Position numbers and translations under genes: made by a program | NCBI GenBank assembly: GCA_947585115.1 | Contig: CANPWW010000019.1 | Location: forward strand, 1-36,674 | Direction: 5' to 3' | Length of the DNA stretch: 36,674 nt | Source of the DNA: an uncultured Monoglobus sp. | Lineage (GTDB): Bacteria; Bacillota; Clostridia; Monoglobales; Monoglobaceae | Shown: positions 33,039 through 36,674 of the stretch, one piece after another | How positions within the stretch are numbered: the first letter of the stretch is position 1 | How the letters are laid out: every line of letters begins with the position of its first letter | The notes under the pieces: model-generated | What the model was told of the DNA's origin: nothing | The model's database searches: none | Seen by the model: the letters and a program-made list of their open reading frames with translations, nothing else

Positions 33039-33341
33039 ATGGTTATAGAAACGAGGGATTTTATGTTTTTAAGGGAAGAAAACGGCGTTTTTCCGCTGGA
33101 TAAGCTGAACCGCGGAGATGCCGCGGTGATCGCCGAAATTAAAGCCGCGCCGGGAAACGGGCGTCTCGCGGAAATGGGATTTATGCCGGGCGAGAGCATC
33201 CAAAACGGCTTCACCTCGCCCGCGGGCGACCCGACGGCCTATCTTTTGGGCGGCTGCTCCCTGGTCGCGCTGAGAAACAGCGAGGCGAAAAATATATTGG
33301 TGAGGATAACCGCCGAGCAAAAGGAGCGCTGTAATATATGA
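33039..33341 (+). CDS. feoA: FeoA-domain protein of ferrous iron uptake
   Basis: A small SH3-like FeoA partner of FeoB, 100 aa. FPLDKLNRGDAAVIAEI, RLAEMGFMPGESI and LLGGCSLVALRNSEAKNILV are the family signature. The start is uncertain: 33039 has AAGGCGG at about 6 nt, while 33063 (MFLREENG) has GAGGG at 5 nt and gives a 92-aa protein nearer to the usual 75-85. Its stop overlaps the start of feoB by 4 nt (ATGA), so the two are translationally coupled. Confidence 0.9.
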   Translation: MVIETRDFMFLREENGVFPLDKLNRGDAAVIAEIKAAPGNGRLAEMGFMPGESIQNGFTSPAGDPTAYLLGGCSLVALRNSEAKNILVRITAEQKERCNI

Positions 33342-35200
33342 AACTCGCATTATTCAAACAAAAACGCGCGGCCGAGCCGCGCCGGCTGTATCTTTTAGGC
33401 AATCCCAACGTGGGAAAAAGCACCGTGTTCAACGCGATGACAGGGCTCAGGCAGCACACCGGCAACTGGTCGGGCAAGACCGTCGACGCCGCATGCGGAA
33501 AATATACATATAACAACCGGGAATACGAGCTGACCGACCTGCCGGGAACGCACTCGGTAAACAGCGGTTTTTCCGAGGAAAGCGTGGCGGCTCGGTCGAC
33601 CGCCCTCGGCGGCGGCGCGGTGACGCTGATACTGGCTGACGCATCGGCCTTAAAGCGCGGCGTGGCTCTGGCGCTTGAATTTTTGGAAAACCGAGACGGC
33701 GGCGCGGTGCTCTGCGTGAATTTCTGCGACATCGCCGAAAGGCGCGGAATAAAAATCAATTTTGATAAGCTGTCAAATACTCTCGGCATACCCGCGGTTG
33801 GAATCACCGCCAAAAAGCGAGGGGACATAAACCGCCTCAAAGAGCTGACGGACAAAAATTATGACGCGCTCTCAAAGAGAGCGGCGGAGCGCAAATCACG
33901 CTCGGCCCCGGAGGAGCTTTTGAAAAGAGCCGCCGAGATCTCGGATGAGTGCACCGTGGCGCCGAGGGCGAAAAACTCCGCCTGCTGCGCCGCCGACCGC
34001 GTGCTGACCTCGCGGGCCTTCGGCATCCCGATCATGCTGCTGTTTTTCGCGGGTATACTATGGCTGACGATTGAAGGCGCCAACTATCCGTCCGAGCTGC
34101 TGTCAAGGCTTTTCGCGCATATAAAGCCGTATATAGCCGCCTGTGTCCCAAGCCCGCTCAAGGGCATACTGGTCGACGGGATATACGGCACAGTCACATG
34201 GATAGTGGCGGTCATGCTGCCGCCAATGGCGATATTTTTCCCACTGTTCACGCTTTTGGAGGACGCGGGGTTCCTGCCGAGGATCGCCTTTAATCTGGAC
34301 AGGTGCTACGCCCGCTGCGGCATGAGCGGAAAGCAATGCCTGACACAGTGCATGGGGCTGGGATGCAACGCGGTCGGCGTCTGCGGCTGCCGCATTATGC
34401 CCGACGAAAAACAGAAGACGATAGCCGTCATAACCAACAGCCTGATACCCTGCAACGGCAGATTCGCAATACTTATCTCTCTGTCCGCGATTTTTATCGG
34501 CGGCATGGTTCCCGACCGTCTCGCGGGGCTTATGCCAATGCTGTGCGTACTGGCTCTGATCTGCCTCGCTTTCGCGGTGAGCTGGGGCGCGTCTCTGTTT
34601 TTTTCAAAAACTCTGTTCCGCGGGGGCGAGGCCGCCTTTGCCATGGAGCTGCCCGAGTACCGCCGTCCCGAAATACTCAAAACGCTTGCGGTTTCGCTCG
34701 TCACAAGAACGATAAAGATCGTGGGCCGCGCAATACTGGTCTCGGCTCCCACCGGCGCGGTGATCTGGCTCCTCGCGAACACGGACGCGGGCGGCGCGCC
34801 GATGCTGACGCGGCTGTCGCTGCTGCTCGACCCCGCCGGACAGCTCATAGGAGTTGACGGGTTCATACTGCTGGCGTTTATCCTGTCGCTGCCCGCCAAC
34901 GAGATAACAATGCCTATCCTTATCATGGGCTACACCGCCGCGGGCGCCATGACCGACGCGGACAGTCTTTCAAATCTGTCGGCGCTCCTTTCGCAAAACG
35001 GCTGGACGCTGCTCACCGCGGTCAACATGATGATCCTGACGCTGTTCCACTGGCCCTGCGCCACGACCCTAATCACGATCTATAAAGAGACAAAAAGCCT
35101 GAAAACGCTGGCTCTTTCGTTTTTAACACCATGCGTGATCGGCGTCGCGCTCTGCCTGATTACAAAATTATTGGCAAATGCGGTGTTGCTGATAGTGTAA
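33338..35200 (+). CDS. feoB: Ferrous iron transport protein B
   Basis: Fe(II) permease with a cytosolic GTPase. The 620-aa protein has G1 GNPNVGKST (21-29), G3 DLPGT (67-71), a G4-like NFCD, a helical insertion region (about 160-220), and the membrane part from about 230 with gate domains: IMLLFFAGILWLTIEG, LGCNAVGVCGCRIMPDEKQKTIAVITNSLIPCNGRF, and a last pair of helices. It is shorter than E. coli FeoB (773) because it lacks a long C-terminal tail, but complete for the Firmicutes type. No terminator is visible after the stop, so read-through to the next gene is possible. Confidence 0.94.
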   Translation: MKLALFKQKRAAEPRRLYLLGNPNVGKSTVFNAMTGLRQHTGNWSGKTVDAACGKYTYNNREYELTDLPGTHSVNSGFSEESVAARSTALGGGAVTLILADASALKRGVALALEFLENRDGGAVLCVNFCDIAERRGIKINFDKLSNTLGIPAVGITAKKRGDINRLKELTDKNYDALSKRAAERKSRSAPEELLKRAAEISDECTVAPRAKNSACCAADRVLTSRAFGIPIMLLFFAGILWLTIEGANYPSELLSRLFAHIKPYIAACVPSPLKGILVDGIYGTVTWIVAVMLPPMAIFFPLFTLLEDAGFLPRIAFNLDRCYARCGMSGKQCLTQCMGLGCNAVGVCGCRIMPDEKQKTIAVITNSLIPCNGRFAILISLSAIFIGGMVPDRLAGLMPMLCVLALICLAFAVSWGASLFFSKTLFRGGEAAFAMELPEYRRPEILKTLAVSLVTRTIKIVGRAILVSAPTGAVIWLLANTDAGGAPMLTRLSLLLDPAGQLIGVDGFILLAFILSLPANEITMPILIMGYTAAGAMTDADSLSNLSALLSQNGWTLLTAVNMMILTLFHWPCATTLITIYKETKSLKTLALSFLTPCVIGVALCLITKLLANAVLLIV

Positions 35201-35267: not shown

Positions 35268-35296
35268 TTGACATACATCTTTCGTTAGGTTATAAT
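35268..35296 (+). promoter_or_regulatory. Fully consensus promoter of the SCP2/H1-like gene
   Basis: TTGACA (35268-35273), 17-nt spacer, TATAAT (35291-35296): a perfect sigma-A type promoter. Upstream is A-rich, with AAATTAGTA present twice (about 35231 and 35252), a possible UP element. Confidence 0.85.
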
Positions 35297-35342
35297 TTAT
35301 TTAAAAATTAAACAAATCTTGTAAAAAGAAAGGTGATTTTAA

Positions 35343-35861
35343 ATGACTTTCGAACAGGCAGTCGGCAGAGTTCAGGCGATAATGGAGAATGCCAGCGCGG
35401 AGAAGATCGGAAATGTCGCGGTGCAGATCCAGTTCACCAACAGCGACTGCAAAGGTATTATGTACATCTCGACCAAAACCGGCGAGCTCGACGTTCAGGG
35501 CTATGATTATTACGACTGTGACGCGGCTGTTGAGCTGGTTTACGGCGATCTGAGCAAGGTTCTTACCGGAAAGCTCAGCGCGGCAAACGCGATAGCGAGA
35601 GGCGACATCGTTGTTTCGGGCAATCCCGACGCGTTCCTGGCGCTCGCGGGCTGTGCGAAAAAAGCTCCCGCCAAGAAGCCCGCGGCAAAGAAAGCTCCCG
35701 CAAAAAAGGCACCCGTAAAGAAGGCCGAGCCTAAGAAAGCGGAGACTAAAAAGGCCGAGCCCAAGAAGGCCGAGCCCGCTCCCAAAAAGAGCGCTGAGAA
35801 AAAGCCCGCCGCAAAAAAGACGGCAGCCAAAACCGCAGCAACAAAAAAGACAGTAAAATAG
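35343..35861 (+). CDS. SCP2 sterol-binding-domain protein with histone H1-like Lys/Ala/Pro tail
   Basis: 172 aa in two parts. Residues 1-102 look like an SCP2 lipid-binding domain: a beta region (VAVQIQFTNSDCKGIMYIS), then VELVYGDLSKVLTGKLSAANAIARGDIVVSGNPDAFLAL, matching the D-----LLTGK--P--A---G---ISGD end of SCP2 domains. Residues 105-172 are a tail of KKxxx pentads (KKAPA, KKPAA, KKAPV, KKAEP and others, at least eleven), with 26 lysines, as in histone H1-like bacterial proteins. The SCP2 part may bind an acyl chain and the tail DNA, RNA or acidic surfaces (inference). SD AAAGGTG before the ATG; strong promoter and terminator of its own. Confidence 0.85.
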   Translation: MTFEQAVGRVQAIMENASAEKIGNVAVQIQFTNSDCKGIMYISTKTGELDVQGYDYYDCDAAVELVYGDLSKVLTGKLSAANAIARGDIVVSGNPDAFLALAGCAKKAPAKKPAAKKAPAKKAPVKKAEPKKAETKKAEPKKAEPAPKKSAEKKPAAKKTAAKTAATKKTVK

Positions 35862-35876
35862 TTTAATTCAATAAAG

Positions 35877-35902
35877 CCCGCGGATAAAACCGCGGGTTTT
35901 TT
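35877..35902 (+). terminator. Terminator of the SCP2/H1-like gene
   Basis: CCCGCGG (35877-35883), 6-nt loop, CCGCGGG (35890-35896), then six T. It begins 16 nt after the stop codon. Confidence 0.9.
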
Positions 35903-36448: not shown

Positions 36449-36540
36449 GCAAAAAATTGCACACGCGCCGGCAGACGGCGCAAAAAATTGCACACCGCCA
36501 CGCGCACCGCACAAAAAATTTTAGAAAAAATCAGAAAAAA
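36449..36540. repeat. Phased A-tracts and 16-bp direct repeat upstream of the tRNA promoter
   Basis: GCAAAAAATTGCACAC occurs at 36449-36464 and 36480-36495. AAAAAATT begins at 36451, 36482 and 36513, an exact 31-bp period (about three helical turns). Further A6 tracts begin at 36525 and 36535, directly before the -35 at 36544. The layout suggests bent DNA and an UP element. Confidence 0.7.
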
Positions 36541-36597: not shown

Positions 36598-36674
36598 GCG
36601 GATATGGCGGAATTGGCAGACGCGCATGGTTCAGGTCCATGTGAGAGCAATCTCATGGAGGTTCAAGTCCTCTT
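36598..36674 (+). tRNA. tRNA-Leu(CAG), 3' end cut by window
   Basis: Acceptor arm GCGGATA (36598-36604), D arm, anticodon stem CATGG/CCATG with loop TTCAGGT and anticodon CAG at 36632-36634, a long class II variable arm (GTGAGAGC-AATCTCAT region) and the T loop TTCAAGT. The last roughly 10 bases, which should complete the acceptor stem, lie beyond the window. The long variable arm and the anticodon together identify leucine. Confidence 0.95.

Follow-up and report, generated by a model that had tools for sequence, protein, structure and literature searches.

The closest described systems are bacterial proteins in which a lysine-rich tail has been assayed or placed functionally. The PAKKA-type tail of MLDS, a lipid-droplet protein of Rhodococcus jostii, binds DNA independently of sequence, and replacing its lysines with glutamate abolishes the binding (PMC5504291). 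The AKKA domain of HbhA is both necessary and sufficient for sequence-independent DNA binding (PMC10665949), and the KPAA tails of AlgP and PhaF either attach to DNA or take part in positioning granules (PMC9239181). The protein described here is encoded in an uncultured Monoglobus sp., and the window analyzed is an entire contig of 36,674 bases from a genome of 2.34 Mb. Like MLDS, it has a putatively lipid-associated N-terminal part and a C-terminal PAKKA-type tail; however, its N-terminal module is an SCP2 domain, the phylum is different, and there is no sign of lipid droplets in Monoglobus. Like the PhaF phasin and AlgP of Pseudomonas, it joins an N-terminal module to a Lys/Pro/Ala repeat tail, whereas their modules are helical and their tails KPAA, in contrast to the KKxxx register found here. 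The tail also resembles the AKKA/PAKKA tails of mycobacterial HbhA and HupB, chlamydial Hc2, and bacterial H1-like proteins, none of which has an SCP2 domain, and the N-terminal domain is not homologous to the MLDS/HbhA type, being SCP2 rather than a coiled coil. Compared with the SCP2 family (PF02036), the fold and the core motif GK....A...G....G are held in common, but in the Monoglobus protein the domain is short and stands alone, has a Y-D-Y-x-D loop specific to its class, and carries a lysine-rich tail; its identity with the best solved SCP2-type structures is 20–24%.

The features of the locus are as follows.

35268–35296, + strand: sigma-70-type promoter TTGACA-N17-TATAAT, exact consensus match
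35329–35336, + strand: ribosome-binding site AAAGGTGA, 6 nt 5' of the ATG, read from the sequence
35343–35861, + strand: ORF of the SCP2-tail protein, 172 aa
35343–35648, + strand: SCP2 domain, residues 1–102, net charge −6 (Pfam, AlphaFold2, Foldseek)
35655–35858, + strand: Lys/Ala/Pro pentad tail, residues 105–172, predicted to be disordered (composition, period-5 test, low pLDDT)
35859–35861, + strand: stop codon TAG
35877–35902, + strand: intrinsic terminator CCCGCGG-ATAAAA-CCGCGGG-TTTTTT (7-bp all-GC stem, 6-nt loop, T-run)

Expression signals and genomic surroundings

The perfect promoter claimed for this gene by the initial annotation lies at 35268–35296, and exact matches to TTGACA-N17-TATAAT number two in the window and none in 100 shuffles. 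The second match (36363–36335, − strand), which has a TG before the −10 box, serves another gene, so that a perfect promoter is not unique to the SCP2-tail gene; it points at a 90-aa ORF of unassigned family (36229–35957, − strand), to which an 88-aa ORF at the same place in genome G008 (L126, the next gene downstream) looks orthologous. The terminator scan listed the hairpin at 35877–35902 on the minus strand only, and its + strand form was read from the sequence. Having its own promoter and terminator, the SCP2-tail gene is probably transcribed alone, as a monocistronic unit. No riboswitch was found in its leader at Rfam gathering scores, and an AGGTGA-type ribosome-binding site is retained in the Monoglobus orthologues. 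A promoter score of at least 11/12 within 150 bp was obtained for 29 of 63 family members, compared with 30 of 323 neighboring ORFs (Mann–Whitney P = 4e−8, an optimistic value because the members are related). Codon adaptation, calculated against ribosomal genes, was 0.74 for the SCP2 domain, within the range of ribosomal proteins (0.63–0.76), whereas FeoB and FeoA reached 0.57 and 0.49. Codon use and promoter probably reflect high expression, which goes some way toward the "very abundant" protein of the initial annotation; both are proxies for abundance rather than measurements of it.

The gene lies 127–474 bp behind feoA–feoB, on the same strand, in Monoglobus and in two more genera of this family. 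This order is found in the window (33039–35200 followed by 35343–35861) and also at L126, L127, L129, and L131–L135. Outside the three genera, feoA–feoB do not lie upstream and the neighbors differ. Because of these differing neighbors and the gene's own promoter, feoA–feoB were rejected as an operon partner, and the adjacency is read as inherited synteny. In the genus f47, the gene directly upstream of a tail-less SCP2 gene encodes an SDR dehydrogenase (L107, L109–L112), and downstream come a sialate-esterase-like gene and, in several cases, one for a CBS-domain protein; at L108, also from this genus, the protein is not tail-less but bears a lysine-rich tract at its N-terminus. Peroxisomal MFE-2 is an SDR–SCP2 fusion, and the f47 adjacency recalls that arrangement; by this analogy, the SDR neighbor weakly favors a hydrophobic substrate for the SCP2 domain. 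No relative of the SCP2-tail protein was found among the viral contigs and plasmids searched. At the end of the window, a tRNA gene (36598–36674, + strand) is cut by the contig end; it is apparently a tRNA-Leu with the anticodon CAG, as judged by eye, and was found by Rfam and missed by ARAGORN. The sequence GCAAAAAATTGCACAC occurs twice in the intergenic stretch ahead of it (36450–36540).

Structure and constraint of the domain and the tail

By profile and by predicted fold, residues 1–102 are a member of the SCP2 family, as had been proposed from the sequence. Pfam SCP2 (PF02036) matched residues 17–103 with 28.1 bits, above the gathering score of 21.3, so that the profile search agreed with the assignment and no mismatch appeared, and the same model matched 23 of 23 members of the relatives' alignment at E ≤ 0.01. 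The score of the related Alkyl_sulf_C model was slightly below its cut-off, and the Pfam matches to the protein were limited to SCP2, Alkyl_sulf_C, and HC2. The ORF at 35343–35861 is the sole SCP2 match in its own genome. An AlphaFold2 model of residues 1–104, built on 22 relatives, had a pLDDT of 92.2 and a pTM of 0.84. When it was compared with the PDB using Foldseek, 46 chains matched at E ≤ 0.001 (E down to 4e−7, TM up to 0.71), and all were SCP2/UbiJ or alkylsulfatase SCP2-type C-domains, including SCP2 itself, the SCP2-like domain of MFE-2, UbiJ, and the C-domains of alkylsulfatases.

The domain is 97–99% identical in amino acids to those at L131 and L132, with 50–53% identity at fourfold sites, and ribosomal protein L9 at the same distance is 88% identical. 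Amino acid identity this high despite half-changed fourfold sites indicates strong constraint on the SCP2 domain within the genus. Recent horizontal transfer was rejected as the cause of the 97–99% identity, the fourfold-site identity being as low as that of the neighboring genes. Domain identity falls to 61% with G008 and 54–55% with G001, and this drop suggests a possible change of constraint or function from one clade to another. The Y-D-Y-x-D loop is common to the close relatives, usually as E-P-Y-D-Y-x-D.

The tail (residues 105–172) contains 26 lysines, 20 alanines, 9 prolines, and no arginine. The KKxxx pentads and the 26 lysines first read by eye are thus matched exactly in count and by a lag-5 period: K–K coincidences at lag 5 numbered 20, whereas shuffling gave 9.0 and none of 2000 shuffles reached 20, and lag 10 behaved likewise, with a register that is regular up to approximately residue 145 and looser beyond. 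Residues 103–172 have a net charge of +21, against −6 for the domain. In the full-length model, the pLDDT of the tail was mostly 42–54 and no secondary structure was predicted, which places it with disordered lysine tails of the AKKA/PAKKA type. The histone H1-like character ascribed to the tail stands as a resemblance, but not as a family assignment: the Hc2 model PF07382 scored 16.9 against a cut-off of 40 bits, with the match confined to the tail, and NF038052 (Hc2) and NF038053 (H1-like, Burkholderia type) scored 23.8 against 135 and 32 against 80 bits, again in the tail only. As all profile scores were below the curated cut-offs, membership of the Hc2/H1-like families was rejected.

All four alanine codons and both lysine codons are in use in the tail. 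Same-codon identity at lag 5 was 19 of 38 (shuffle mean 17.3, P = 0.33), and at lag 15 there was a mild excess (P = 0.025), perhaps reflecting one older duplication of 15 codons. Because codon similarity at lag 5 does not exceed chance, the repetition is mainly at the protein level and does not stem from a recent DNA repeat. The tails of close Monoglobus species gain and lose pentads (60–78 aa), with the kind of tail retained. A local repeat expansion was rejected on the basis of the codon-lag test and the conservation of the tail across relatives. A search of the own genome with the tail as the query found no second tailed protein, and the one other place in that genome with the KKx3KKx3KK pattern is the N-terminus of FtsK/SpoIIIE; one pattern search and one protein search are the basis on which the tail is taken as unique in its own proteome. 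FtsK/SpoIIIE-type proteins with a short lysine-rich N-terminal stretch were seen at L052 (own genome, C1:77796–77831), L087, L120, and L121, and the stretch at L120 reads KPAAKKPAAKK. In other Clostridia, KKPAAKK-like tracts occur at the N-terminus of the primary sigma factor RpoD (L012, 2738–4270) and at the C-terminus of the glycogen branching enzyme GlgB (L013, 3430–6186), indicating that, within this class, tails of this sort are found on several proteins not related to one another.

Occurrence of the fusion in Clostridia

As judged from the genomes compared, the SCP2-tail fusion is widespread in Clostridia, in Monoglobaceae and many other families, and its expression across the class is probably high. 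The gene is present in 11 of the 12 sampled Monoglobus genomes (own included), and the sole genome without it is 74% complete. When 391 Clostridia genomes were searched with the domain profile, 65 matched, approximately 50 of them strongly (>78 bits), and most of the strongly matching genomes carry a Lys/Ala tail on the protein; the same fusion is therefore found in relatives, and the tail is not a local expansion. In a phylum-wide sample, matches outside Clostridia were weaker (<56 bits), and the tail was absent in all those relatives whose frames were read. Among neighboring ORFs, 0 of 343 had at least 25% lysine in their last 60 residues.

The domain tree of 81 rows includes 46 proteins with a C-terminal tail, 3 with an N-terminal tail (L011, L108, and L113), and 32 with none or with one that is not lysine-rich. 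Eight changes suffice to explain the tail state, compared with 27.8 in shuffles, on a tree that rests on only 102 columns, has many open forks and a long branch in L113, and for which a few tail states were assigned by hand (L088 and L140 tailed, L100 and L122 untailed). The N-terminal tails of L011, L108, and L113 suggest that what is conserved is the pairing of domain and tail rather than the position of the tail. Genome G303 has three SCP2 paralogues, one C-tailed, one untailed, and one N-tailed (L088, L094, and L113). The C-terminal extensions of at least 25 residues (n = 47) have a median length of 69 and a median net charge of +16, with lysine mostly at 23–39% and arginine at 0–8%. Across the families of Clostridia, tail length ranges from 26 to 162 aa and the sequence varies. 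The f56 tails (L115, L123, L095, and L099) have alternating K/E, like charged helices, and net charges of +5 to +19.

Gene content was also compared among these genomes. HU was present in 28 of 28 genomes checked, indicating that the SCP2-tail protein does not replace this standard nucleoid protein, and the idea of such a replacement was rejected. PHA synthase was absent from 22 of 22 genomes carrying the family, and a PHA-granule role is unlikely; with no phasin domain found by Pfam either, assignment as a PhaF-type phasin was rejected. Of 20 C-tailed genomes, 10 lacked PPK1 (f2, f10, f13, f32, f56, and one of f16), whereas all 8 genomes checked of the non-C-tailed group had it; PPK is also encoded in the own genome. 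As PPK1 does not track the tail, an AlgP-type polyphosphate granule protein was rejected. A search for WS/DGAT, bearing on a lipid-droplet tether, gave no match in 28 genomes, but it gave none in the control genomes either and so had no positive control.

Possible roles of the paired domain and tail

The explanation we prefer, tentatively and at somewhat less than an even chance, is that the SCP2 domain is an acyl- or lipid-binding module held by the tail on the nucleoid or another polyanion. The protein would be a small, highly expressed cytoplasmic adaptor, whose folded domain would either sit at a lipid surface or bind a hydrophobic ligand, with an acyl chain or lipid as the likeliest candidate, while the disordered Lys/Ala/Pro tail would hold it in a sequence-independent manner on a polyanion, for which chromosomal DNA is the likeliest. 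The SCP2 module would then take the place of the phasin, droplet, or granule module of the PhaF, MLDS, and AlgP adaptors, and the two halves would work jointly; the protein would at most function like these adaptors, from outside their families. The initial annotation's idea of an abundant two-part linker withstood the tests made here, as did the domain, the tail, and the promoter. The lipid half of this explanation is based on the SCP2 fold, and the maintenance of the tail across many families of Clostridia, while its length and sequence vary, speaks in favor of the explanation. On the other side, the K/E-rich f56 tails with their modest net charge fit DNA less well, there is no recurrent lipid-metabolism operon partner outside one genus, and lysine tails have further targets in anionic membranes, RNA, and polyphosphate. 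The existence of tail-less relatives suggests that the SCP2 domain can do without the tail in some lineages.

It is possible, although on the unlikely side, that DNA is not involved and that the tail, by binding anionic phospholipids electrostatically, retains an SCP2 carrier of lipids or acyl chains at the inner membrane. Docking on anionic membranes is known from eukaryotic SCP2 proteins, the own genome has its single further KKxxxKKxxxKK stretch at the N-terminus of the membrane protein FtsK/SpoIIIE, and for the mixed K/E tails of f56, contact with membranes or proteins is no worse a fit than contact with DNA. However, the tail is predicted to be disordered and has no hydrophobic or amphipathic anchor beside it, and the PAKKA-type tails assayed so far bind DNA (PMC5504291, PMC10665949).

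Distinctly unlikely, in our estimate, is a protein associated with RNA, ribosomes, or polyanions in general, with the SCP2 domain as a protein–protein or metabolite module. As a polycation, the tail is generic, codon use like that of ribosomal genes and the strength of the promoter fit an abundant growth-related protein, and similar tails occur on the unrelated RpoD and GlgB of other Clostridia (L012, L013), but typical RNA-binding basic tails contain arginine, of which the tails of this family have almost none (0–8%). That the tail is a functionless low-complexity expansion tolerated on a conserved SCP2 protein seems very improbable. Its length does shift by pentad indels among close species (60–78 aa in Monoglobus), and similar tails are carried by the unrelated proteins at L012 and L013; however, the scrambled synonymous codons indicate that the tail is old, many families retain its composition and charge, its state requires 8 changes over 81 rows against 27.8 in shuffles, and searching the own genome with it returned no second tailed protein. 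An adaptor tethering PHA or polyphosphate granules to the nucleoid, although alike in architecture in principle (PMC9239181), is about as improbable, being disfavored by the lack of PHA synthase in the 22 genomes carrying the family and of polyphosphate kinase in half of the C-tailed genomes checked, when all eight genomes checked of the non-C-tailed group have the latter.

If the preferred explanation, an SCP2 module held on the nucleoid, is taken further, the protein might be one through which the nucleoid of anaerobic gut Clostridia responds to lipids, in that acyl occupancy of the SCP2 pocket would alter its seating on DNA and so pass membrane or fatty-acid status directly to the chromosome; we regard this as improbable, if conceivable. 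Both components, the SCP2 domain and the H1-like lysine tail, are familiar, whereas their pairing is apparently undescribed: the initial annotation knew of no function for the combination, and our literature search likewise found no description, although an earlier one may exist elsewhere. The hypothesis is easily testable, as one small protein suffices. By analogy with the described adaptors, the pairing suggests an undescribed link of lipids to the chromosome or another polyanion. Should the tail bind DNA and the domain bind lipid, the protein would serve bacteria that lack PHA synthase as an SCP2-based lipid–nucleoid adaptor, similar in this to PhaF and MLDS, and would be a candidate for linking lipid directly to the chromosome.
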